Below, in pieces: positions 17,087 to 29,860 of a DNA stretch of 64,000 nt. How positions within the stretch are numbered: the first letter of the stretch is position 1; each line of letters opens with the position of its first letter. The notes below the pieces were generated by a model. That model did not search any database, had not been told where the DNA came from, and was given only the letters and a program-made list of their open reading frames with translations. The position numbers and the translations under genes are program-made. Origin of the DNA: Asticcacaulis sp. EMRT-3 (lineage in GTDB: Bacteria; Pseudomonadota; Alphaproteobacteria; Caulobacterales; Caulobacteraceae); contig NZ_JASERT010000001.1 of NCBI RefSeq assembly GCF_030027245.1, positions 310,001 through 374,000 of the forward strand, given 5' to 3'.

Positions 17087-17104
17087 TGGTGCCCCCGGTC
17101 GGAC
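17087..17104. other. Left attachment-site repeat of the island
   Basis: Identical over 18 bp to the last bases of tRNA-Leu(CAA) including its encoded CCA end (29087-29104). Similarity stops at 17105. This is the copy produced by integrase-mediated crossover at the tRNA 3' end. Confidence 0.9.
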
Positions 17105-17211: not shown

Positions 17212-17224
17212 CCCCCGGTCGGAC
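17212..17224. other. Third, shorter attachment-like repeat
   Basis: CCCCCGGTCGGAC, the 13-bp core of the island repeat, recurs exactly 120 bp to the right of the copy at 17092-17104. Its flanks differ from the tRNA. It suggests a tandem or earlier integration event at this site, or a secondary crossover site. Confidence 0.65.
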
Positions 17225-17469: not shown

Positions 17470-17949
17470 CTATTTTCCTCCAAACTCACGGCTCCAAGCA
17501 GCCAGAGAAGGAAGTTCAATTTGAGGAAATGTTTTCCAATCGGGGAAGTAGAGCATGCTATCGGCTATTACTTCCGTAACGCCAATCGGCACTTTATCTT
17601 GCTCATAGCTGCCCCAGTAACTTAGGGCATTTTCTTCGGTTAAATCGCCTTTCGCGGCGGCTTCAAAATCTCGGACGTCCGCGTAATGGTACCTGCCACT
17701 CGAAAGAACCAAATAGCATGGGGTGATCATACGGTTGTTAAAAAGCCAATACTTCATTCGCTCCTCAGCGGTGGCCCGATCAAGAGACAGGAAAAATGAA
17801 CGTAGCCGACTTGGTAGATGTGGAAATTGTTCTTTCCGAATTTTTTCAAAGAGATCTTCCGCTGCGCCTGGAGTGCCGAACTTCATATGCGACGGTGAAA
17901 TGCCTACCAGCAAATCGTCCATTGCCGTCACTAGCCCGATCCATTCATG

Positions 17950-19546
17950 GTTCCTGTGACCGGGTTGCCGTTTAGGTTGGCCTATGCCGAGACGCGTTTT
18001 TCCGCTTCGTGTTTTTCGCCACGCGCTGGACCAGATTTTTCTCCGATGGGGTTGATGGTGATGGCGGCGGCTTTTGGGGCATAGCCCCATTTTTCATGCA
18101 GGTGCGGGCTTGAGCGCGGCCATGATGTGACGGAAGAGACTGGCCTCTGGGCAAGCGGCGGCGAAGGCGATCCTGATGCGATGAGACGTCTCGGTGATCC
18201 GGGCGCCGATCTTCAGTAAGCGCAACCGGATGGTATTGAACTCTGCGGTCGCCAGCTTGTGGGCCTTTGGGATTTGATCCCTGACGGTGAGCATGAGCCA
18301 ATAGGCGGCGGTGTGGAGGATCAGACGCATCTGGTTGGCCAGGGGGCAACGGCAGGAGGTGCGGTCGCTTTTAAGCTGGGTCTTGTGCAGCTTGATCAAG
18401 TTCTCCGCATTGCCCCGGGCGCAATAGAGCTTGGCGTATAGGGTCTCAGGATCGGGATCGCCCAGGGACGTCACGACGAAACGGTTGTCGAGACCAAGCG
18501 GCGTGGCTTCGATACGAGCAATGACGCGGCGCTCGCGCCCCCAGGATTGGGCGCCATGGCGGACTTCGGTGTAGCCGCGAACGGCGGCGGCTTGCTGTTC
18601 GGCGCGAACGACACGGATATGATCGGCAAAGGCTTCGACCTTGGCATGCAAGGGCTTGGAGCCGGGCAGTCCGAAGATATAGTCGACGCCCTTGCGCTCG
18701 GCCCAGGCCATGACCTCGGGTCTGGCGTAATGCCCGTCGCCGCGCAGGGTAATGTGAGTTTTGGGCCAGTGTTTGCGGATCCGGCGCACGATCTTGCGGA
18801 CCCAGCTACGCACCTCTTTGCCGGAAGGTGTTTTACCTGGCCGCAGAATGACCACGACCGGCCGACCCGTGGCCACGTCGTAGACGTGGATAGGCTTGAA
18901 GCAATACTCGCCTTCATGGGCGTTGAAGAACGACAACTGCTGGCGGCCATGGACGACGTCGACCGTGTCGTCGATATCGAGCGTGATCTCAGCCGGGATG
19001 GCCGAGCCAAAGCTATGGCAATACTGATCGACCAGGGCGTAGGTCAGCCGGATCAGGCTACGAAGATCTGGGGCATTCTCCCAACGCGACAGCGTGGGTT
19101 GCGAGCACAGATCCTTGCCTTCCTCGGGAAGACGGCCGCAGGCGAGCTTGAACGCAGGGTCGGTGCGCAGAGAGCCCAGGTCATTGCCATCTTCATACCC
19201 GCAGGCGATGGCGAAGATCCGAGCCTTCAAGATTGACGCCACCGAGTGTGTCACCAGCAACGGATTGCGACGGTCTGGAATGAGCCGCCAAAGCCGGTCG
19301 ATGATCCCGATCTGGCGTTCCGCGGCAGACAAAAGCATGACGCCGCCGTCGGAACTGATACGACCGCCATCGAAAGCAGCCGTGACTTTCTTGCGCGAAA
19401 CGCTTGGCAAATCGAACGGAAGATCGGTAATCTGGTCCATGGCGGGTGTGGCACCGGCGGTGTTGGAAATGATTTAGGATTCGACACCCATAATCTATGC
19501 CAAAACAAAGCCTTACGCTACACCCGCTGCATCATTTTGCCGCTAC
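17950..19546 (-). mobile_element. IS1380-family insertion sequence
   Basis: A 1597-bp insertion bounded by the 4-bp direct repeat CATG, with one transposase gene filling most of its length. Size and target-duplication length fit the IS1380 family. The ends are defined by the in-frame restoration of the host gene. Good terminal inverted repeats are not obvious at these ends; a weak inverted match (ACCGGGTT near 17959 against ACACCCGCT near 19520) lies slightly inside, so the exact ends could shift by a few bases. Confidence 0.85.
18094..19440 (-). CDS. IS1380-family transposase
   Basis: A full-length DDE transposase of 448 residues. Catalytic acidic residues are visible in context: ITLDIDDTVDVVHGRQ (first Asp), ITLRGDGHYARPEVMAWAE (second Asp) and YCARGNAENLIKLHK (Glu). 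The N-terminal DRLWRLIPDRRNPLLVTH and the C-terminal CRCPLANQMRLILHTAAYWL are characteristic of the IS1380 group. The frame is intact, so the element may still be mobile. It catalyses cut-and-paste movement of the element in which it sits. Confidence 0.96.
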   Translation of the reverse strand: MDQITDLPFDLPSVSRKKVTAAFDGGRISSDGGVMLLSAAERQIGIIDRLWRLIPDRRNPLLVTHSVASILKARIFAIACGYEDGNDLGSLRTDPAFKLACGRLPEEGKDLCSQPTLSRWENAPDLRSLIRLTYALVDQYCHSFGSAIPAEITLDIDDTVDVVHGRQQLSFFNAHEGEYCFKPIHVYDVATGRPVVVILRPGKTPSGKEVRSWVRKIVRRIRKHWPKTHITLRGDGHYARPEVMAWAERKGVDYIFGLPGSKPLHAKVEAFADHIRVVRAEQQAAAVRGYTEVRHGAQSWGRERRVIARIEATPLGLDNRFVVTSLGDPDPETLYAKLYCARGNAENLIKLHKTQLKSDRTSCRCPLANQMRLILHTAAYWLMLTVRDQIPKAHKLATAEFNTIRLRLLKIGARITETSHRIRIAFAAACPEASLFRHIMAALKPAPA

Positions 19547-19939: not shown

Positions 19940-22213
19940 ATGGCTAATGTAAAGGCCGACCTGCAAGCAGAGTTGGCAAAGGACTCGCCTGACCCCTCCA
20001 TTGTGGCCAGGCTGACTGATGAGCTTTTAGATCAATCCACCAACTCAGTGCGGTTCACGGTTGATGCCGGACATATCAATCGCTTGGGGTATGAGCTAGT
20101 CGGAAAGCAGGAAACCGCCCTCTCCGAACTCATAAAAAATGCCTATGACGCCGACGCCACTGGTGTTGAAATTCGTTTTCAAAACTACGACCGTCCCGGT
20201 GGAACGCTTATCATAGCAGATACCGGGACTGGGATGAGCGCGGATACAATTCGCAATACGTGGATGCGATTGTCCACACGGGACAAAATCGACCATCCTA
20301 AGTCTCCAATTTTTGACCGGCCGCGAGCCGGCCGAAAGGGTATCGGTCGTTTTGCTGTTCAACGATTGGGCCAGAAGCTTACCCTCGAAACAAGTCAGAT
20401 AGGACAAGCGAAAGGGATTCGCGTTAAATTCGACTGGGATGCGTCATATCGGTCTGGGATGGATCTCGGACATGTCTGGAACGACATCACGACTTTTGAT
20501 AAAGCGCCGGACTCTCAGGGCACCAAGCTTATCATTGAGGATCTGAGAGACAGTTGGCGAGACGAATATTTCGAAAGGGTATGGCGATCAGTATTGTTTT
20601 TGCAGCCGCCATTCCCTTTGGGCGGTGCGGCCGATCACGCTTCCGGGCTGACAAATGCGTCAATCAAAGACCCTGGCTTTGAAGTTACGATTAATGGCCT
20701 GCAGGATGGAAAGCGAAAAGCGCGATTTGATCTCCAAAATAGCTTCCTCAATTTAGCACTTGCCGAGATCACTGGCTCCATTGATTCTAACGGTCGAGGG
20801 AAGGCGCGGATTATTTCTAAGAGGCTTGGGTTTGATGAGACTGTGGAATTCGAAGAGCACTATGATAAGGTCGGGGTCGTATATCTTGAGAGCCGATACT
20901 TCATCTACCACACCGACTTTTTGTCCGGGATTTCCCAGAAAACCGCTGCCGCGATGGGGACGCAGTATGGTGGCGTAAGAGTTTATCGAAATGGGTTCCG
21001 GGTAGCGCCGTATGGTGAGCCCTCAGACGATTGGTTGCGATTATCTGATAGGCAAGCCCGTCGCGTGCTTCTTGCCGCGATGAACAACAATAATTTTTTT
21101 GGACATGTGACACTATCTGCGAAGGACAACCCTAACCTCGAAGAGACTAGTTCTCGTGAAGGTCTTGTCGAAAATGACGCTTACAAGGAACTTGTGAATT
21201 TCACTTTTGAATGTCTTTACGCGGCTGTAAAACTTGTCGCTGAGCGTCGACAAAAGAAGGTTCAAGCGTCGCAAACTACGGGTTACACTCCCGCGCGTAA
21301 GGCGTCTGCCGAAGCTGCGCTCGAAAGCTTAGCCGCAGCGCAAGAGAAGATTGAAGAGGCGGCAACCCAAACAGGCCCCGAACGCGATGCCGCTTTGGCC
21401 GAAGCTGTAGCTCAAGTTAGTCTCGCAGTAAAAATCCAGGAGGGTGTTGTCAGTGACGAGAATAACTATCTCGAATACGAGAACATGTTGCGAATCTTGG
21501 CCTCCCTTGGTGCCTCAATGAGCATTTTTGGTCACGAGATTAAAGCCATGAACAATTCTGTAAATGGACAAATCACTTTACTTCAGGCGGGAATTGGAAG
21601 CTTAAGGGATCAATTGGAGCGTGATGCTTTATTATCTAGGATAGAATTATTAAGAACCGCAGTTGGAAGAGTATTCAATCTTGGTGGGTACATAGAAAAT
21701 CTAACTTCCTATACTCAATCGCGCGTTTTAAAAAAGGTACATGTGCTTCACTCTATTGAATCCTTTTTTGAGCAATTTCGAACTTATCTTCTTAGGAACG
21801 AGATAAAAGTAAAAATTGAGGTTCAGCCCCGAGATTTGCGTACTATTGAAATGCACGCATCAGAGTTAGAAGCAGCATTGTTTAATTTCACCACCAACGC
21901 TGTAAAAGCCCTGAGAAAACATAACTCACCCGGCAATCACCTTATTAAGGTCTCTGCAAAAGAGGACGGTAATTTTGTTCTTATCAATTTCGAAGATAAT
22001 GGTCCTGGCATCCATGATAGTATCAGGGATCGGATTTTCGATGCCTTTTTCACTACTACTCAAGGGCGCGTAGATGATTTTAGCGGTGCCGGAACTGGAC
22101 TCGGACTTAGAATCGTTTCCGACATAGCAAGTGCCTACGGTGGTTCGGTAGAATTGACGACGCCAAGTGATGGCTACTCGACCAATTTCGCCTTTAGAAT
22201 TTTGAGAGGTTAG
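19940..22213 (+). CDS. Dual GHKL ATPase / histidine kinase-like sensor
   Basis: A 757-residue cytoplasmic protein with two ATP-binding modules. The N-terminal one is Hsp90/MORC-like: N-box ELIKNAYDADATGVEI (about 63-78), IADTGTGMS (about 93), GRKGIGRFAVQRLG (about 132). A middle region is followed by an Ala/Glu-rich helical stretch. Then comes a histidine kinase-like core: candidate phospho-acceptor in FGHEIKAMNNS (about 528), N-box NFTTNAVKALRK (about 650), DNGPGI (about 685) and GAGTGLGLRIVSD (about 717). No membrane segment is present, so the stimulus is cytoplasmic. It is first in a three-gene operon, 6 bp before a receiver-domain gene that is the likely phosphotransfer partner. Which module senses and which signals is unknown. 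Confidence 0.88.
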   Translation: MANVKADLQAELAKDSPDPSIVARLTDELLDQSTNSVRFTVDAGHINRLGYELVGKQETALSELIKNAYDADATGVEIRFQNYDRPGGTLIIADTGTGMSADTIRNTWMRLSTRDKIDHPKSPIFDRPRAGRKGIGRFAVQRLGQKLTLETSQIGQAKGIRVKFDWDASYRSGMDLGHVWNDITTFDKAPDSQGTKLIIEDLRDSWRDEYFERVWRSVLFLQPPFPLGGAADHASGLTNASIKDPGFEVTINGLQDGKRKARFDLQNSFLNLALAEITGSIDSNGRGKARIISKRLGFDETVEFEEHYDKVGVVYLESRYFIYHTDFLSGISQKTAAAMGTQYGGVRVYRNGFRVAPYGEPSDDWLRLSDRQARRVLLAAMNNNNFFGHVTLSAKDNPNLEETSSREGLVENDAYKELVNFTFECLYAAVKLVAERRQKKVQASQTTGYTPARKASAEAALESLAAAQEKIEEAATQTGPERDAALAEAVAQVSLAVKIQEGVVSDENNYLEYENMLRILASLGASMSIFGHEIKAMNNSVNGQITLLQAGIGSLRDQLERDALLSRIELLRTAVGRVFNLGGYIENLTSYTQSRVLKKVHVLHSIESFFEQFRTYLLRNEIKVKIEVQPRDLRTIEMHASELEAALFNFTTNAVKALRKHNSPGNHLIKVSAKEDGNFVLINFEDNGPGIHDSIRDRIFDAFFTTTQGRVDDFSGAGTGLGLRIVSDIASAYGGSVELTTPSDGYSTNFAFRILRG

Positions 22214-22219
22214 GTCAAG

Positions 22220-23350
22220 ATGTTCAAAGGTGTCTACATTGATGATGACCAAGCGGACTTAAGTCTATATGGCGATTTGCTCAATAGTTTCTACGCCCAG
22301 GCCGAAGAAAACGAATCGATAAAATTTACACCGTTAGAGCCGGCAAGCATAAGTTGGCTATATGATTTAGTTCAAAAAGAACAGCCGGAAATAGTTGCAC
22401 TAGATTACCGATTAGACGGCATCGCCAGAACAGATGGCCAAAACAAATATAGGGCAGGCACTATCGCGCAAACAGTGCGAGAGCTGGCCGTTGAGGCCCC
22501 GCATTTAGACATGCCAATCGTGCTGATCTCGACAGAAGACAATATCAAGAGCCTCTACGGTCCAGATAAAACTTCTCACGATTTGTTTGATCATAAAATC
22601 TTAAAGGGCGATATTGCAGGCGGAAATCCTGGTACTATCCCAGCACGCCTCTTAGATCTTTGTGTTGCCTACGACGCCATTAAACGAATGGGAAATGACG
22701 TTGCTTTTATTCCGAACATCCTTGGCTTAGCCCCAGACGAATGGGATGATATTCAGCCAGCGCGATTTTCAAATGCACTGAAAGAAGCTGGCAACCTACC
22801 TCATCAAGTGGCTCGATTTTTTAAGCGCCAAATCATAGAGCGTGCCGGTTTGCTGGTTGGGGCGAATGATGTTGCCGCGTTATTGGGCATTGCTCAAGCT
22901 CATGCGGGTGATGCCTTTGAACGACTCCATTCGCATGAAGAGCTTGCGTACAAAGGAATTTTGTCCTCAGGTTGGCCCAGGATTTGGAACCATAAGCTTC
23001 GAGATTTTCTAAAGGAAGTCTTTGGGAAGACTTCGTTGGACGTTTCGAACGAGGACAGATCAACCAAAATTAACGGTGTACTAGGCACTGAGTTCGCCCC
23101 AGCACCCTCACCTTGGACGGGCGAGACAAATGTGCGTTCCTCGTTCGCGTGTTCAAGCTGCGGACGGCCCACCGAGTTGACTAATTCTATCGCTGCTTTC
23201 GATCCTTGGGCACCAACGTTTAGCCAACGTCAACGTATTTGTTTCGACTGTGTATCTACAGGATTGTTCGAGCAACGCCACTTACATGTCGACCAGCTCG
23301 ATGAAAGGATCGCCGAAGACATACGAGACGGAAAGGTGGAGCGGAAATGA
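22220..23350 (+). CDS. Receiver-domain protein with C-terminal zinc ribbon
   Basis: A 376-residue protein. The N-terminal receiver (REC)-like domain retains the key positions: acidic cluster Asp8-Asp10 (YIDDDQ), likely phospho-acceptor Asp62 (VALDYRLDG), Ser/Thr104-105 (VLISTEDN) and Lys127 (FDHKILKGD). The loop after Asp62 is longer than usual. A helical middle region follows, then a four-cysteine zinc-ribbon-like motif near the end (CSSCG about 310, CFDC about 341). No DNA-binding helix-turn-helix is seen, so the output is probably protein- or RNA-directed. It sits 6 bp after the dual-ATPase kinase gene and overlaps the next gene by 4 bases. Confidence 0.82.
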   Translation: MFKGVYIDDDQADLSLYGDLLNSFYAQAEENESIKFTPLEPASISWLYDLVQKEQPEIVALDYRLDGIARTDGQNKYRAGTIAQTVRELAVEAPHLDMPIVLISTEDNIKSLYGPDKTSHDLFDHKILKGDIAGGNPGTIPARLLDLCVAYDAIKRMGNDVAFIPNILGLAPDEWDDIQPARFSNALKEAGNLPHQVARFFKRQIIERAGLLVGANDVAALLGIAQAHAGDAFERLHSHEELAYKGILSSGWPRIWNHKLRDFLKEVFGKTSLDVSNEDRSTKINGVLGTEFAPAPSPWTGETNVRSSFACSSCGRPTELTNSIAAFDPWAPTFSQRQRICFDCVSTGLFEQRHLHVDQLDERIAEDIRDGKVERK

Positions 23351-24021
23351 CAACTTTTCCGCCAGCCCGTGACATGGCAACAGCACTGACAGGTACAGTG
23401 GGCAAATTGGTTGACGCTGGAATTTTAACTGCCGATAGCAATGCTTGGATCGAGGCCGCTGTCTCCCCCTTACGGCGGCAACGCACAAGCAACGATTGGG
23501 AATACACAATATCGCGTGAAAACCCGCTAAGATTCAACGCAGTTTTGGATGAGGCTGGTGATGCGTACTCCCCGGAGATCAGCGTCGACCATATTAGAGT
23601 TACAGGAGATACGGAGGGCTTCCCTTTTCAAGCATGGGATATTTCCCTGACTCTCAGGTATCAAACAGAAGGGATCGTTTGCCCACGTTGGCATTTTGAC
23701 CTTGGAAACAGCACCCAAGACGGCCCCAAAATGCACTTGCAGTATGGCGGTCATGTTCACGCCGATCGAAGCCTAGATGCAAAAATTAAAGTGCCACGCT
23801 GGAATGCGTTGCTAATGGACACGGTTCTGCTCTGCGAGGCGGTCGCTGCGAATTTCTACGGAGACATCTGGCGAGAGAGCCTTCGAGAGGATCGCGTATT
23901 GGCAAGTTATATCAAAGCCAGCGAAAAGCTTTGCTACCCATATTTAATTGAAAAGATGCGAAACGCAGTGGAGGCTTCAGGGTCTGGCACCATTCTTAGC
24001 CAATGCTGGAATGACCGTTAA
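23347..24021 (+). CDS. Unknown protein, third gene of the kinase operon
   Basis: A 224-residue protein, translationally coupled to the receiver gene (ATGA overlap). No family recognised. The central part looks beta-rich (FQAWDISLTLRYQTEGIVCP, then WHFDLGNSTQDGPKMHLQYG) and the C-terminal half is helical (WNALLMDTVLLCEAVAANFY, then SEKLCYPYLIEKMRNAV). There is no signal peptide, membrane helix or recognisable nuclease, protease or NADase motif. By position it is the best candidate for the output or adaptor protein of the kinase/receiver pair; this is inference from gene order only. Confidence 0.75.
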   Translation: MTTFPPARDMATALTGTVGKLVDAGILTADSNAWIEAAVSPLRRQRTSNDWEYTISRENPLRFNAVLDEAGDAYSPEISVDHIRVTGDTEGFPFQAWDISLTLRYQTEGIVCPRWHFDLGNSTQDGPKMHLQYGGHVHADRSLDAKIKVPRWNALLMDTVLLCEAVAANFYGDIWRESLREDRVLASYIKASEKLCYPYLIEKMRNAVEASGSGTILSQCWNDR

Positions 24022-24024
24022 GGT

Positions 24025-25836
24025 CTAGGTTGTCTTCTTTTTGCGATCCGGAACGCGGCTTTCACGGAGCATAGTTAGTTGATCCGAAAGTAGCCGGATT
24101 TCTTGATTGTGTGATGCGCCAAAAATCGGTCTGAAAATAAAGTCATCCGCCAATTCACGCGCTTGGACTGGGTCACCAGCTCGCAGAGCTTGGTCTATAT
24201 CTGCATATCGATCAATAATCGCTGACAGTGAAATGCCTTTCGGAAGTACCACGCTTATTTTTTCTGCATCTCGGGGCTCGTGTTTCAGAACTCCTGACCC
24301 ATATTTTCGACCAACAATTTCTGCGGAAATTTGCGAATACGATGTCAAAAGTGAGATGGAAATAAGCTCAGCCTGACCTTCGGACAGCTTCATCTTAAAA
24401 AATACACGATGTAGCGTGTTAGTGCAATTCGAGCCAAAGCGGTTTAGAATTAGCCTTGGGCCGTGGTGGTGCATTACAGGGAAAAATGCGTCGGGAATAT
24501 TGCCGTCTTGCGGACAGCACCACACCCTACGTTTCCGAAAAGTTCCTATCGATTTTTTTTTCGATTCTGGATAGCTATCTAGGTAAGCCTGTAACCCTGG
24601 TGGATTGCTCGTGTCTATTTTAGCGCTGACCATAAGGGCCTTTGCCCCCTTGCCTAGAAGTGCTTCATAATCTCTTTGATGGAATTCAAGGCCATCGAAA
24701 TATCCGAATTTTGCAAGAATAGGCTCCAAATCTTTTTCGGCGATCCCTAGCTCTTGCGCTTTTGGTCGGGACAGAAGGAAATGGGGATTGTCACCTGTAA
24801 CAACTCCAATGCGAACGTTCAGGTAATCGCCCAGCATACCGCAATCCTCACGGTCAGCTACTTCTCCAATCAAATTGCGGGTGACATTACTTAAGCGCCC
24901 ACCAACGGGAGATAAACACGAGGCTTCAGAGATGTCGTGGCCCGCGTTCCACTGCCACACTGCGGTTTTGAAAGCTTCCAAATCGTGGCAATAGGTGAGC
25001 GGAATGTCGGATTGGAAAACTTGCCTAGGCGTAACACTAAATCCCTCGGCCAACAAAATTGCAGTCTCTTCATCGGTTCCTTCATTCAAGAACAAACGTT
25101 CGTGAATGGAAAACGCTCTTACGCGATGGAAGTGGCTGACAAGGTAGCGACGAAGATCGGTGGCATAGTCCGCCTGTAGTAGGCTACCTGGCAAGACCCA
25201 CGCCATACGTCCGTTAGCACTCAGATATTGGACGGAAAGCAGGACAAAATAAGCCCAAAGGCTTGCCCGATTATTCATTCGGACGCCTAACGAGCGGATA
25301 ACCTCCACAGCTTTCGCACGAATCTGAGGATCTACCTTATGGTAAGAAAGATATGGCGGGTTGCCGATTACCACACCAAATTTCGAGACCCAGTCGACTT
25401 TAGTTGGCGGCACTAAGAAGTCTTCATTCAAAAAATGAGCAGTGTCAAAGTCCACCCCAATGAGGTCGCTCAAGTGGCTAAATGCCACCGGATCAATGTC
25501 GCAACCGTGGATATTGTCTTGAGGGCGTATATTGCCGTGGTTTGTCAGTCTATCGATGGAAGACTTGATAAACCCGCAACCGCCAAAGCTTGGCTCTAAT
25601 ACTAGGTCCGATGGCGAACGTATTGCCCATTCGGACAGGACTTCGCTCACACCCACTGGCGTATAAAAAGCAGCAAGCTCTCGTTGTTTTAGTGCTACTT
25701 TCTGCATAAACCCCAACTGGTGCTTCAAAAAAATCATCATAAGTGATTTCTCAGAAATTAGTAAGGCAGTGATTTCATGAACAGATTGTTGTTTTCCACC
25801 TATTTTTTTCAGGGAATTCTTTAAAAGCTGAGGCAT
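24025..25836 (-). CDS. N6-adenine DNA methyltransferase (Eco57I/type I-like)
   Basis: A protein of about 603 residues with a gamma-type N6-adenine methyltransferase core. AFYTPVGVSEVLSEWA precedes the SAM-binding motif I VLEPSFGGCGF, GCDIDPVAF follows, and the catalytic motif IV is GNPPYLSY. The long C-terminal part is probably the target-recognition region (ISAEIVGRKYGSGVLKHEP). The start is uncertain: ATG at 25836 is used, a TTG at 25848 or the ATG at 25707 are alternatives, and none has a strong ribosome-binding site. It lies just after a nucleotidyltransferase-HEPN gene on the same strand and no restriction subunit is recognisable. It is either a solitary methyltransferase or the modification half of an unusual defence pair. 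Confidence 0.87.
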   Translation of the reverse strand: MPQLLKNSLKKIGGKQQSVHEITALLISEKSLMMIFLKHQLGFMQKVALKQRELAAFYTPVGVSEVLSEWAIRSPSDLVLEPSFGGCGFIKSSIDRLTNHGNIRPQDNIHGCDIDPVAFSHLSDLIGVDFDTAHFLNEDFLVPPTKVDWVSKFGVVIGNPPYLSYHKVDPQIRAKAVEVIRSLGVRMNNRASLWAYFVLLSVQYLSANGRMAWVLPGSLLQADYATDLRRYLVSHFHRVRAFSIHERLFLNEGTDEETAILLAEGFSVTPRQVFQSDIPLTYCHDLEAFKTAVWQWNAGHDISEASCLSPVGGRLSNVTRNLIGEVADREDCGMLGDYLNVRIGVVTGDNPHFLLSRPKAQELGIAEKDLEPILAKFGYFDGLEFHQRDYEALLGKGAKALMVSAKIDTSNPPGLQAYLDSYPESKKKSIGTFRKRRVWCCPQDGNIPDAFFPVMHHHGPRLILNRFGSNCTNTLHRVFFKMKLSEGQAELISISLLTSYSQISAEIVGRKYGSGVLKHEPRDAEKISVVLPKGISLSAIIDRYADIDQALRAGDPVQARELADDFIFRPIFGASHNQEIRLLSDQLTMLRESRVPDRKKKTT

Positions 25837-25849
25837 AGATGCGAACAAA

Positions 25850-26749
25850 CTAAGTGCCGAGGCGCTCCCGGCAGACTGCTTGGACTATATCTCGGAGAAT
25901 GGTGATCCGCTCGTTGAGCCATTCGAGTTCGTCCTCGGAGACCGCATACTCAGCGGAGTAGCGTGCCTCTACATACGCTCTGCGAAGCCGGTCAAAGGCT
26001 TGCCTATGTAGTTTGGTGTCATTGGGCCAGACGGCCTTGAGGCGGTCATCTAGGGCCTCTGCTTGCGACCGGAGCAAAGTGATGCGATGGCTTTTAGGGC
26101 TGTACAATGTCAGCACGAGCAAGAGACAATGATATAGTCTCTCTGCCGCTTGGTGCAGGTTGAATGCGGCGAGCTTGAGATTGTTCCGTTCTATGCAATA
26201 GCCAGCAATGTTTTGAAACTCGACCGCGTCTGGAAACCATTGATCGAAGTTGGCTTGAGCCTCAGCCTTGATCTCCGCCGCCGTGAGCGGCTTCGGCTTG
26301 ATCAGGGGATGACCAGGCGCTTCGTAAAGCATGATGCCGTCACGGGCGATGTCAGTGAAAAAAGGGCGGCCCTTGGCAAGCTGGTCGTTTACATCGGCGA
26401 GATCGTGGACAATGAAGTTGACAGGGGTTTTGATATGCTGAGTGACAGTCACTTCGCGGATGAAATGCTCATCTGCCTTGCCCCAATATTCATGCAAATC
26501 GGTAAACTGATGGCTGTTGACCACGATCAGCAGATCGTAGTCGGATCGATAGCCTGAAAGCCGGTCTTCCACCCAGTCGCCGCGCGCATAGGAGCCGAAC
26601 AGGATCACCTTCAAAATACGACCGAGTTTCCGCTTGTCCGACAGCTTGGTTTTAGTGACATCCTCGAACTCATCGAACAGCACCTTGACCACGCGCTCAA
26701 GCTCGCGGCGTTTCGTATCCGGTAAGTGAGAGAGCTGATCGGCCAGCAT
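25850..26749 (-). CDS. Nucleotidyltransferase-HEPN fusion protein
   Basis: A protein of 299 residues. The N-terminal half is a minimal nucleotidyltransferase with GSYARGDWVEDRL and the acidic pair SDYDLLIVV. The C-terminal half (from about GYCIERNNLKLAAFNLHQ) is an all-helical HEPN domain. Separate MNT and HEPN proteins form antitoxin-toxin pairs in which MNT AMPylates HEPN; the fused form is found in many islands. A clear Rx4-6H RNase motif is not evident to me, so the HEPN part may bind rather than cut RNA. The start at 26749 is chosen for a GGA-rich ribosome-binding site. The next gene is the methyltransferase, with almost no gap. Confidence 0.87.
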   Translation of the reverse strand: MLADQLSHLPDTKRRELERVVKVLFDEFEDVTKTKLSDKRKLGRILKVILFGSYARGDWVEDRLSGYRSDYDLLIVVNSHQFTDLHEYWGKADEHFIREVTVTQHIKTPVNFIVHDLADVNDQLAKGRPFFTDIARDGIMLYEAPGHPLIKPKPLTAAEIKAEAQANFDQWFPDAVEFQNIAGYCIERNNLKLAAFNLHQAAERLYHCLLLVLTLYSPKSHRITLLRSQAEALDDRLKAVWPNDTKLHRQAFDRLRRAYVEARYSAEYAVSEDELEWLNERITILRDIVQAVCRERLGT

Positions 26750-26837
26750 CGGGATTCCTGTCAGGTGGAAATCCGAGTCTAGCACCGCTGCCGGGCGTGG
26801 GCTACCGCTTTTGCAGCGGCCCTATTACGAGTGCGGC

Positions 26838-27128
26838 CTACCTACGCTTCTTCAATGGCAATTCGAGCTGTGTCCATTGTGGAAGCCCGTTGGCGTCGGG
26901 CTTCGGCGCCGGCACAATTGCTGACACTGGCGGCGCGGGCGCTTTCTCTGAATTCCCGCCGTCGATGAACTCCAACAGGTCACGGCGCATGATCAGACGC
27001 CGCCCGCCAACCTTTACCGACCGCAAGGCCCCTTCGGCGATCCTTTCGTAAAGGAATGACCGGCCCAGGCCTGACGCCTTCACAGCCTCGTCTATCCGAT
27101 ATGAAATCTTGTCGTTGGTATCTGGCAT
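26838..27128 (-). CDS. AlpA/excisionase-like helix-turn-helix protein
   Basis: A 96-residue MerR-like winged helix protein of the excisionase/AlpA type: YRIDEAVKASGLGRSFLYER (helix-turn-helix), then AEGALRSVKVGGRRLIMRRD (wing), DLLEFID, and a Pro/Ala-rich tail ending in KKRR. Such proteins either assist excision or regulate the integrase. It lies between the integrase and the cargo, the standard position for a recombination directionality factor. The start at MPDTNDKI (27128) is chosen over the longer frame from 27158. Confidence 0.88.
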   Translation of the reverse strand: MPDTNDKISYRIDEAVKASGLGRSFLYERIAEGALRSVKVGGRRLIMRRDLLEFIDGGNSEKAPAPPVSAIVPAPKPDANGLPQWTQLELPLKKRR

Positions 27129-27594
27129 GTGGAAGCCCTCCAGACCGAATAATACCATGCTGACCCGGTTTAACTGATAGCCCTAGGAGGGACAGGCAGC
27201 GCCAAATGAGGTCACGGAGCACAACAAACAAGAGCGGTCGAAATTTCATTGAGGGTCTAAACATCGTGCCGTGCGGGCTCTTGACAGGTCCGGCCAACCA
27301 TAGGCCAGGGACCTGCTAAGAGCCCTTTTGGGAGACATTTTTTGTGCGGAGCGCAAAATGTCGATTAAATTAACAAAAACAATTGATTACAGCGAAATAA
27401 CTCCCAGTTTTCAAAAGAAGTCACCAAAAACGATGTGCAGACAAGAACTTAGGCGAAACGGGAGTTGAGCTTTATCTTGCCTTCACTGCGTACCTTTTTT
27501 GTTCTATTTTTCACAAGGTAAAGTAAGGCCGCATTTTGTGCGATGCACACTAAAGAGCAAAAGGCCGTAAACGTGACTAGCTCGGATGGTGCTT
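27129..27594. other. Non-coding region between AlpA-like gene and integrase
   Basis: Contains an AT-rich tract around 27360-27420 and no convincing gene. It probably includes the promoter of the AlpA-like gene, and possibly integrase arm sites, though none is identified. A minus-strand frame through 27449-27760 mostly overlaps the integrase C-terminus out of frame. Confidence 0.5.
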
Positions 27595-28905
27595 CTAACC
27601 ATAATTTTGACCTGGGAAACGCACTGTCATGGTCACATTTGACGTATAGCCAGTCTTTGGCTCGATAGATCGGGAGGCCACTTTCAGCCGCTGCGCAAAC
27701 TGCTTGGGAGAAAGGATATCTACGCCCGCTCGTAAGTGATCGAGATAGTCGGACCACCATTGCGCCATTTCTACCCGCTCATCCCAAAACTGGCTACGCT
27801 GATAGATACCACGTACACTGTCGTCCACATGTGACAGGGCCAGTTCAATGGTCTCCGGTGTCCAAAGCCTTGATTCGTTGAGAAGCGTGCTGGCTGTGCT
27901 GCGGAAGCCGTGCGACACCATCTCGTCGTTGCCATAACCCATTCTCCGAAGCGCTAGGTTTAGAGTGTTGTCGGACATGGGCTTTCGCCAATCCTTATGC
28001 GCCGGGAACATCAGTTTGTAATTGCCGAACCTGACATGTGCTTCATTGATAATTGCCAACGACTGTCGAGATAGGGGCACGGAATGAGGTTCCCGCATTT
28101 TCATTTTCTCAGACGGTATTTTCCAGACGCAGTTGCCACGGTCCACTTCCGTCCATTCGGCGCTGCGAAGCTCTCCGGGGCGAACGAATATATGAGGTAG
28201 GAGCCTTAAAGCCAGCCGCGTGCCGATGTAGCCGTGGTAGGCTTCAATATCTCGCAAGAGCTGGCCGAACGCACCCGGATCAATAATGGCCGCGTGGTGC
28301 CGCACTTTTGGTTTTATGAGCGCTTCCCCCAGTTCGGCGGCGGGATTTGTCGCAGCTCGTCCCGTCAGGATGCCGTAGCGGCAGACCCTAGAGATAAACG
28401 CTCTGATGCGGTTTGCCGTCTCATGATGTCCGTTGGCTTCCACCTTACGGATGGCCTGGAGAATCTCGTAGGGCATCAGATCAACGAGTGCTTGGTCTCC
28501 AAGGTCTTTTTCGATCAGGGAAAAGAACCAGGCCATCTTGTAGAGCGTTTTCTCTGAAAAGCCGTCCTTGCGCTTTTTCTCGATAAATTCGTGCGCGACG
28601 ACACGCAAGGTGCTGCTCTTCTCCAGAATTCTTGCCTTCTCCTCACGCTTCCGTTCCTCGTAGGGATCGACCGCGTTGGCAAGCAGGACACGGGCGTCGT
28701 CGCGCCTCTGCCGCGCATCTTTAAGGCTTATCTCTGGATAAGAACCGACCGACAGCACTTTCTCAGCGCCTTGCCATCGATACTTCACCCGCCAAAATTT
28801 TCCACCCGACGGCGTGACAAAAAGATAGAGACCGCCCTCATCGTAGAGCTTGAAGGGCTTAGTTGTCGGCTTCGCGTTGCGCGCCGTCATTTCCGATAGA
28901 GCCAT
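27595..28905 (-). CDS. Tyrosine recombinase (P4-type integrase)
   Basis: A 436-residue integrase with the N-terminal arm-binding DUF4102-type domain (KPFKLYDEGGLYLFVTPSGG), a core-binding helical domain and a catalytic domain. The catalytic set is visible: Arg in FVRPGELRSAEW, His-x-x-Arg in HGFRSTAS, and the nucleophilic Tyr in RGIYQRSQF. P4-type integrases typically use tRNA 3' ends. The gene begins about 180 bp from the tRNA-Leu 3' end and is transcribed away from it. It should catalyse recombination between the 18-bp repeats. The frame is intact, so the island may still be excisable. Confidence 0.97.
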   Translation of the reverse strand: MALSEMTARNAKPTTKPFKLYDEGGLYLFVTPSGGKFWRVKYRWQGAEKVLSVGSYPEISLKDARQRRDDARVLLANAVDPYEERKREEKARILEKSSTLRVVAHEFIEKKRKDGFSEKTLYKMAWFFSLIEKDLGDQALVDLMPYEILQAIRKVEANGHHETANRIRAFISRVCRYGILTGRAATNPAAELGEALIKPKVRHHAAIIDPGAFGQLLRDIEAYHGYIGTRLALRLLPHIFVRPGELRSAEWTEVDRGNCVWKIPSEKMKMREPHSVPLSRQSLAIINEAHVRFGNYKLMFPAHKDWRKPMSDNTLNLALRRMGYGNDEMVSHGFRSTASTLLNESRLWTPETIELALSHVDDSVRGIYQRSQFWDERVEMAQWWSDYLDHLRAGVDILSPKQFAQRLKVASRSIEPKTGYTSNVTMTVRFPGQNYG

Positions 28906-29086: not shown

Positions 29087-29104
29087 TGGTGCCCCCGGTC
29101 GGAC
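29087..29104. other. Right attachment-site repeat of the island (in tRNA-Leu)
   Basis: The 18-bp repeat TGGTGCCCCCGGTCGGAC at the tRNA 3' end, identical to 17087-17104. The integrase gene starts 182 bp to its left. Confidence 0.9.
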
Positions 29105-29171
29105 TCGAACCGACACTCCTCTCGGAACCGGATTTTGAATCCGGCGCGTCTACCAATTCCACCACAGGGGC
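29087..29171 (-). tRNA. tRNA-Leu (CAA anticodon)
   Basis: An 85-nt class II tRNA. The acceptor stem GCCCCTG pairs with CGGGGGC, with discriminator A and an encoded CCA (29087-29089). The anticodon stem CCGGA/TCCGG encloses the loop TTCAAAA, giving CAA, which reads the leucine codon UUG. There is a long variable arm, and the T-loop GGTTCGAGTCC is standard. Its 3' 18 bp are the attachment site of the island, and the integration has kept the tRNA sequence intact. Confidence 0.97.
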
Positions 29172-29652: not shown

Positions 29653-29813
29653 ATGGCTCCTGATCGTGATTATACAAAACAGCCTTATCGCCGGACATGG
29701 TTCTGTAAAGCGTGATGGATCAGGCTGGGATTGCGTCTGTCTTATGCAAAGGTTTCACCCTGAGCCCGGCGCTTGTGGCGCTTTTCAGCCTGAGGCTAAG
29801 CCTTTGTCTTATA

Positions 29814-29860
29814 GCTCTTCCTTATCCAAAAAGTGGATCCGCTTTTTGGGGGAGCGCTCT
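29814..29860. repeat. Dispersed palindromic repeat (copy 1)
   Basis: A 47-bp element starting GCTCTTCCTTATCC, containing a palindrome CCAAAAAGTGGATCC/GCTTTTTGG at 29826-29849 centred on GGATCC, and ending GCGCTCT. Nearly identical to 47580-47626. It abuts the stop codon of the downstream minus-strand gene, where it may serve as a transcription-end hairpin. Confidence 0.85.

Follow-up and report, generated by a model that had tools for sequence, protein, structure and literature searches.

A four-gene island unit with a sensor kinase, a receiver, a candidate effector and an adenine methyltransferase in Asticcacaulis sp. EMRT-3: a putative phosphorelay-gated restriction system

Three consecutive genes on a mobile island of Asticcacaulis sp. 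EMRT-3 encode a dual-ATPase histidine kinase, a receiver protein and a member of an undescribed protein family; what is their function, and which of their neighbours belong with them? The genes lie in a 64,000-nucleotide stretch of contig NZ_JASERT010000001.1 (positions 310,001 to 374,000; hereafter the window, to whose numbering all coordinates refer). An earlier note, made from the letters of this stretch, had proposed a phosphorelay-based immunity or stress system. This remains the best reading, amended in that the unit has four genes, including a methyltransferase, and holds a candidate effector. On balance, we think it probable that the unit is a methylation-keyed, phosphorelay-gated restriction system acting against phages or mobile elements, with gene 3 as its effector. 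The unit and its parts are as follows.

19940..22213, + strand: gene 1, soluble dual-ATPase protein, 757 amino acids (aa), kept alongside genes 2 and 3 in 12/12 loci
20111..20434, + strand: HATPase_c_3 of gene 1, aa 58-165 (Pfam, 1.6e-21)
21860..22198, + strand: HATPase_c of gene 1, aa 641-753 (Pfam, 1.7e-23)
22220..23350, + strand: gene 2, receiver protein, 376 aa; phospho-acceptor D62, codon 22403-22405
22766..23104, + strand: middle region of gene 2, aa 183-295, tentatively helix-turn-helix-like (MarR_2 in relatives)
23105..23347, + strand: C-terminal four-cysteine ribbon of gene 2 (C311, C314, C341, C344; alignment)
23347..24021, + strand: gene 3, 224 aa, undescribed family, probable effector (alignments)
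24025..25848, - strand: Eco57I-family N6-adenine DNA methyltransferase, 607 aa, NPPY motif (Pfam, N6_Mtase 5.3e-14, Eco57I 1.1e-10)

The unit recurs as a whole in distant bacteria and proviruses, more than chance arrangement would give. A gene 3-based scan by two peptide patterns over 84,980 species genomes found at least 12 loci with protein identities of 32-50%, and in all 12 genes 1, 2 and 3 stand in order with an adjoining Eco57I-family methyltransferase (in L007 a contig end cuts the methyltransferase and gene 1 is split into two open reading frames (ORFs); in L003 gene 1 is cut). The methyltransferase is convergent and downstream in seven of these loci; of the other five, one has it downstream and four upstream, always on the same strand. 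All 15 copies read have the NPPY motif. Because the first 12 loci had been picked by gene 3, scans by gene 1 and gene 2 were added. The gene 2-based search recovered three viral-contig loci, all with genes 1-3; the methyltransferase is also present in L018 and L019, and in L017, which lies on the same contig as L016, none was seen upstream and the contig stops at gene 3. A Hymenobacter plasmid, likewise found via gene 2, carries genes 1-3 (gene 3 by hidden Markov model (HMM), 2.5e-6) and an adenine methyltransferase. When viral contigs were scanned with gene 1 only, genes 2 and 3 followed in all ten loci with at least 30% identity and an uncut downstream region, and an N6 methyltransferase was found in eight; contig ends truncate the remaining two. 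Three of these ten are contigs already known via gene 2. Two further matches of at least 30% identity (L088, L149) stand outside the count, each being either cut or broken. In that scan, L095 is the contig of L019, L097 that of L018 and L087 that of L016/L017.

With the methyltransferase in 12/12 loci and genes 2 and 3 in 10/10 close gene-1 loci, the core, as judged from gene content, is four genes including the methyltransferase, and the adjacent HEPN gene is outside it. The methyltransferase and the HEPN gene had earlier been described as a pair next to the operon; this holds for HEPN, a mere neighbour with a homologue in one of the 12 gene 3-found loci (near the module in L012), and not for the methyltransferase, which belongs to the unit. 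Joint occurrence of the three operon proteins, which the same note had made the test of its proposal, is found among close gene-1 relatives; in distant ones gene 3 is often replaced or absent. Across the window and 11 loci (L007 omitted), genes 1-3 co-diverge (Mantel r 0.88-0.95), and the methyltransferase follows them more weakly (r 0.58-0.65). In the close pair L010/L012, the ratio of nonsynonymous to synonymous substitution rates lies far below 1 throughout, at ~0.04 in genes 1 and 3 versus ~0.12 in gene 2 and the methyltransferase, so that all four genes are under purifying selection in this pair.

Genes 1-3 are intact and tightly coupled. Gene 1 comprises a paraMORC-type GHKL and S5-like module, a linker, DHp helices in which H532 sits (codon 21533-21535) and a histidine-kinase ATPase; both HATPase domains are found by Pfam, in agreement with the claim of a MORC-like ATPase and a separate histidine kinase core in one protein. 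The GHKL/S5 modules of MutL, topoisomerases and MORC proteins act as ATP-driven clamps or switches. No fused nuclease domain was found in gene 1 by Pfam, the histidine-kinase core standing in that place. Gene 2 has a receiver fold, and both its D62 and H532 of gene 1 are invariant in the alignments, which upholds the proposed acceptor; the conserved lysine is K129, not Lys127 as first given. In the alignment of gene 2, 25 of 30 rows keep the four cysteines at 311, 314, 341 and 344. The ribbon previously described is thus real, and the accompanying statement that it takes the place of a DNA-binding domain is unsafe, since MarR_2 (Pfam) matched four of 11 gene 2 family members (best expectation value (E) 2e-4; the window's gene 2 itself had no match in that search). 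The unit is rare: gene 2 relatives occur in one of 385 alphaproteobacterial genomes, that of the window, and 13 of the same 385, again including the window's own, carry a gene 1-type kinase (E<=1e-40). Among the 12 alphaproteobacterial kinase neighbourhoods, Pfam searches of chosen neighbours found a C5 methyltransferase in six and an MBL-fold protein in one.

Gene 3 probably represents an effector of an undescribed family, as its alignments suggest. Over 16 sequences, W51, P76, H116, D118, P127, H130, Q132, G134, P150, R151, N169 and W175 are invariant (codons of H116 and H130 at 23692-23694 and 23734-23736). H116, D118, P127, H130 and R151 are still invariant over 21 sequences including five very distant proteins (L101, L103, L104, L022 and L026) from the slot that gene 3 occupies after the receiver gene, although this second invariance is less independent than the first because the five entered the alignment partly for showing the motif. 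The family motif reads HxD...PxxHx[QHY]...R, and the persistence of H116, D118, H130 and R151 at such distance suggests a putative active site. A profile search of a database of 5.8 billion proteins (7,996 candidates scored) returned 36 proteins, of which the named ones are all called hypothetical and none has a Pfam domain. The protein is predicted to form an antiparallel sheet with helices, and not a receiver. Gene 3 was earlier called translationally coupled and unrecognised, and it is indeed tightly coupled and of an undescribed family without a Pfam match. The accompanying remark that the operon has no recognisable effector no longer applies, gene 3 being a candidate on the grounds of its exchangeable slot and conserved motif.

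The slot itself was surveyed in the gene-1-only scan of viral contigs, in which the best 80 of 104 relatives gave 78 loci; exclusion of four that were >95% identical left 74, and exclusion of 15 that were truncated or had <2.5 kb downstream left 59 for slot counts. After the receiver gene, these 59 have gene 3 by HMM (12), a gene 3-like protein by seed and motif (3), an HNH protein (5), an MBL-fold protein (3), a methyltransferase (3), another protein (13) or no slot gene (20, counting L125, whose ORF matches the gene 3 HMM). The three assigned by seed and motif only are L101, L103 and L104; second-round HMM values were 0.025 for L104 and 3e-5 for L026. Pfam searches of the 36 non-methyltransferase slot proteins found HNH in five, Lactamase_B in three, Vsr in two and HNH_2 in one. 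The slot is interchangeable, holding a gene 3 relative, HNH, MBL-fold, Vsr or unrecognised protein, or none. Receiver length differs with its content: 340-410 aa in the 15 gene 3-type loci versus 209-228 aa in the eight HNH or MBL-fold loci, without overlap, the remaining 36 loci spanning 220 to 613 aa. Gene 3, HNH or MBL occupies the slot in 22 of 23 N6-methyltransferase loci versus one of 30 C5 loci, a contrast for which the Fisher value of 1e-12 is merely descriptive because most seeds were drawn from loci with an adenine methyltransferase and related loci are non-independent. The same design is seen on annotated plasmids, with HNH in Deinococcus and an MBL-fold protein in Burkholderia and Hymenobacter volaticus. 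A Rhizobium plasmid has a gene 3-like protein (3e-5) and a GIY-YIG-annotated protein, and no such slot gene is annotated on Campylobacter, Ensifer and Rhizorhabdus plasmids.

Proximity of methyltransferases to gene 1 was counted over all 78 loci, with C5 or N6 seeds at E<1e-10. Of 65 methyltransferase ORFs, 32 lie within 300 bp of gene 1 and 33 at 300-2500 bp, with none at 2.5-7 kb in 491 kb of sequence; a methyltransferase stands within 4 kb in 49 of the 54 loci having room on both sides. As a separate observation, four C5-methyltransferase loci (L114, L128, L130 and L146) have unrecognised slot proteins of 215-233 aa, and that of L114, in which an arginine-proline stretch comes after an HxQ, has a faint likeness to gene 3 and may be a distant branch.

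The computed features, namely a four-gene unit, intact catalytic residues, a receiver fold, an exchangeable slot and a mobile, defence-associated context, can be assembled into a scheme of restriction. The methyltransferase would mark host DNA at adenines, and gene 1 would be the sensor, its paraMORC-type ATPase working as an ATP-driven clamp or switch that responds to unmarked foreign DNA or to what follows from its presence. Once triggered, this ATPase would switch on the histidine-kinase half of the protein, phosphate would move from H532 of gene 1 to D62 of gene 2, and phosphorylated gene 2 would release or activate gene 3. The effector would most likely be a nucleic-acid-cutting enzyme acting via H116, D118, H130 and R151, a nucleic-acid cutter being the simplest choice because the slot elsewhere holds nuclease families. 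We infer the trigger, the phosphotransfer, the action and target of gene 3 and the role in defence from these arrangements.

The same genes could instead work as a two-component regulator by which the methyltransferase, or other genes, would be tuned, with phosphorylated gene 2 binding DNA via its middle region and gene 3 serving as an accessory regulator or ligand-binding protein. A helix-turn-helix-like region in gene 2 relatives and the absence of a slot gene in 20 of 59 gene-1 loci fit such a role, and control of a restriction-modification system is what the authors of a 2021 study of related kinases speculate on, in the accessible part of their paper (PMC8011034), a suggestion that also tells against restriction. 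Against this, HNH, MBL-fold or Vsr proteins elsewhere take the position of gene 3, the receivers of HNH and MBL loci have, at just 209-228 aa, scant room for an output domain, and the orientation of the methyltransferase varies, being convergent to genes 1-3 in seven of 12 loci. We regard this alternative as unlikely. Slightly less likely still, in our judgement, is abortive infection, in which gene 3, with RNA, nucleotides or proteins as its target, would kill or arrest the cell, and the methyltransferase would merely keep the sensor quiet. The division into sensor, relay and effector would resemble signalling-type immunity, a HEPN-nucleotidyltransferase gene shares the island and the HxD...H...R motif is not DNA-specific, but HNH and Vsr, which the slot holds elsewhere, are known mainly as DNA nucleases. 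That the methyltransferase is a solitary gene in its own right, merely travelling with the kinase operon in defence islands is very improbable: its position and orientation vary, its co-divergence is weaker than that within genes 1-3 and a very different methyltransferase is found in the Hymenobacter plasmid, yet it is present in 12/12 loci, all methyltransferase hits in the 78 loci scanned to 7 kb lie within 2.5 kb of gene 1, and the adenine type tracks effector class (22/23 versus 1/30, with the caveat on seeds and relatedness given above).

Several points weigh against gated restriction itself. Gene 3 has no sequence match in Pfam, NCBIfam or PADLOC and no fold match, and its putative nuclease action therefore rests on slot equivalence and the conserved motif. 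MBL-fold proteins, moreover, are not always nucleases. In 36 of the 59 gene-1 loci the slot, by seed-based assignment, has neither gene 3 nor HNH nor MBL, so the output of most wider-family loci appears to be unassigned or to lie within the receiver protein; Pfam adds Vsr in two of these slots and HNH_2 in one. The helix-turn-helix region that gene 2 may hold would also fit ordinary transcription control. The Mantel correlations stand without a housekeeping-gene control, and the methyltransferase of the Hymenobacter plasmid is just 18% identical. No obvious hypervariable target domain stands out in the methyltransferase, nor does any region of the partner proteins specifically track it.

Detocs, the one known system with which the operon had been compared, is a phosphorelay-based phage defence and resembles the window unit in that respect. 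It is defined by a TPR-containing histidine kinase and an effector carrying its own receiver domain. The window unit differs: Pfam finds no TPR in gene 1, as had been remarked, gene 3 has no receiver and a methyltransferase is core here. Classical type II restriction-modification shares the DNA methyltransferase, and Pfam, NCBIfam and PADLOC found no known endonuclease domain in the four genes, gene 3 being a candidate only. The same three databases assign the operon to no described system, as the note had supposed; PADLOC (2023 library) gave partial matches for gene 1 and none for genes 2 and 3.

Overlooked in that comparison was a broader published design, a dual-ATPase kinase and receiver beside restriction-modification genes. 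In the accessible part of their paper, Bellieny-Rabelo et al. (2021; PMC8011034) describe pairs of HEF_HK (PF19191) and Response_reg_2 (PF19192) proteins adjoining restriction-modification genes; 174 of 222 proteins combine HATPase_c_3, HEF_HK and HATPase_c, and Vsr genes are the commonest downstream of the receiver gene. The likeness extends to domain order (HATPase_c_3, DHp, HATPase_c), the adjoining receiver and a neighbourhood with methyltransferase and Vsr genes, and in profile comparison gene 1 aligns with HEF_HK proteins at 99.9% (hhalign). The window-type receiver, compared with receivers of HEF_HK systems, reaches only 27% probability. Neither gene 1 (at E<=1) nor any other protein of the window's genome matches PF19191, and PF19192 matches neither gene 2 nor anything else in the genome, with one of 30 gene 2 rows at E 0.19. 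Matches to PF19191 are mostly in longer frames (8/11 in 1005-1086 aa, 3/11 in 751-805 aa), as are those to PF19192 when set against gene 2 (8/8 in 567-817 aa). The accessible text of the paper stresses C5 methyltransferases and, unnamed orthologous groups aside, names no gene 3 family.

Iyer et al. (2008; PMC2292703) reported paraMORCs in restriction-modification operons, where, in the part of the article available, GHKL and S5 ATPases accompany DNA methylases, Vsr and HNH. Their paraMORC1-5 differ in having nuclease, TIR or unknown C-termini, and the words 'receiver' and 'two-component' are absent from the main text. An N-terminal GHKL ATPase in a restriction or defence protein is also found in BbrUII/HgiDII (NF050001) and in VcSduA of Shedu type I-D (PMC12137116, accessible part); NF050001 matches gene 1 at aa 38-207 with 82.9 bits, far under the 550-bit cut-off, and gene 1 differs from both in having a histidine-kinase core and, as far as was found, no fused nuclease. 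Within the accessible literature, which took in parts of PMC3710099, PMC12137116, PMC7159879 and PMC7824862 and excluded preprints and most subscription papers, we found no tested system of this kind and neither the gene 3 family nor the effector-slot rule in print. Within a kind that is published but has yet to be characterised, the window unit forms a branch of its own. It brings a new family of probable effectors and a modular rule through which the function becomes directly testable.

It is quite possible, and we put it tentatively, that this branch constitutes a new type of restriction-modification, with an ATPase-clamp sensor kinase, cleavage switched by a His-Asp phosphorelay and an exchangeable slot for gene 3, HNH, MBL-fold or Vsr proteins. 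If so, restriction would have a signalling form in which recognition, relay and cutting reside in separate proteins coupled by a phosphate switch, and effectors would be exchanged like cartridges. The dual-ATPase kinase and receiver pairs described in 2021 would acquire a testable function, the known effectors would be joined by a new family whose putative active site is conserved, and bacterial MORC-like ATPases would be tied to the sensing of DNA marks.

The island that carries the unit is real, spanning ~12.0 kb between 18-bp exact repeats of a tRNA-Leu 3' end, with a tyrosine integrase, an excisionase-type protein and the tRNA-Leu gene on its right side.

17087..17104: second 18-bp copy of the attachment repeat, exact match to the tRNA-Leu 3' end, left island end
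25850..26785, - strand: HEPN and nucleotidyltransferase protein, island cargo, not core (Pfam)
26838..27158, - strand: excisionase/AlpA-like helix-turn-helix protein of the island (NCBIfam TIGR01764, 1.3e-7)
27595..28905, - strand: tyrosine integrase of the island (Pfam)
29087..29104: attachment repeat within the tRNA-Leu gene (gene 29087-29171, - strand; repeat match)

Guanine-plus-cytosine (GC) content is 47-51% in genes 1-3 and the methyltransferase versus 60-61% in the flanks; together with the attachment repeats and the island's own integrase, this bears out the portrayal of a compact, island-borne, AT-rich set. Neighbouring genes elsewhere were searched as a chosen subset, by Pfam for 20 alphaproteobacterial neighbours and 10 near core or viral loci, and by PADLOC for 10. 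PADLOC matched three of its 10 flanking proteins of core loci, two of them next to L001 (PD-T7-1 at 4e-181 and a weak PDC-M63A) and one, caspase-like, next to L012 (1e-18). Five viral contigs of similar size (L090-L094, 36-41 kb) have the module near their ends, as though phages of one group used a standard site for such cargo, and all of them but L090, which is cut, show the methyltransferase.

Within the island, the single-chain nucleotidyltransferase and HEPN protein at 25850-26785 adjoins the methyltransferase, recalls MNT/HEPN toxin-antitoxin pairs and has weak matches to the MntA and Hailong HalB models. A transposase-like ORF (18094-19440, 61% GC; family assigned by eye) adjoins an ORF at 17470-18090 with a weak DUF2441 match, and its insertion may have interrupted a cargo gene. 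A 13-bp partial copy of the attachment repeat at 17212-17224, 125 bp inside the left end, perhaps marks an older or tandem insertion. A stretch of ~65 bp at 29796-29860 recurs ~20 times in the genome at 83-92% identity and probably belongs to an intergenic repeat family.

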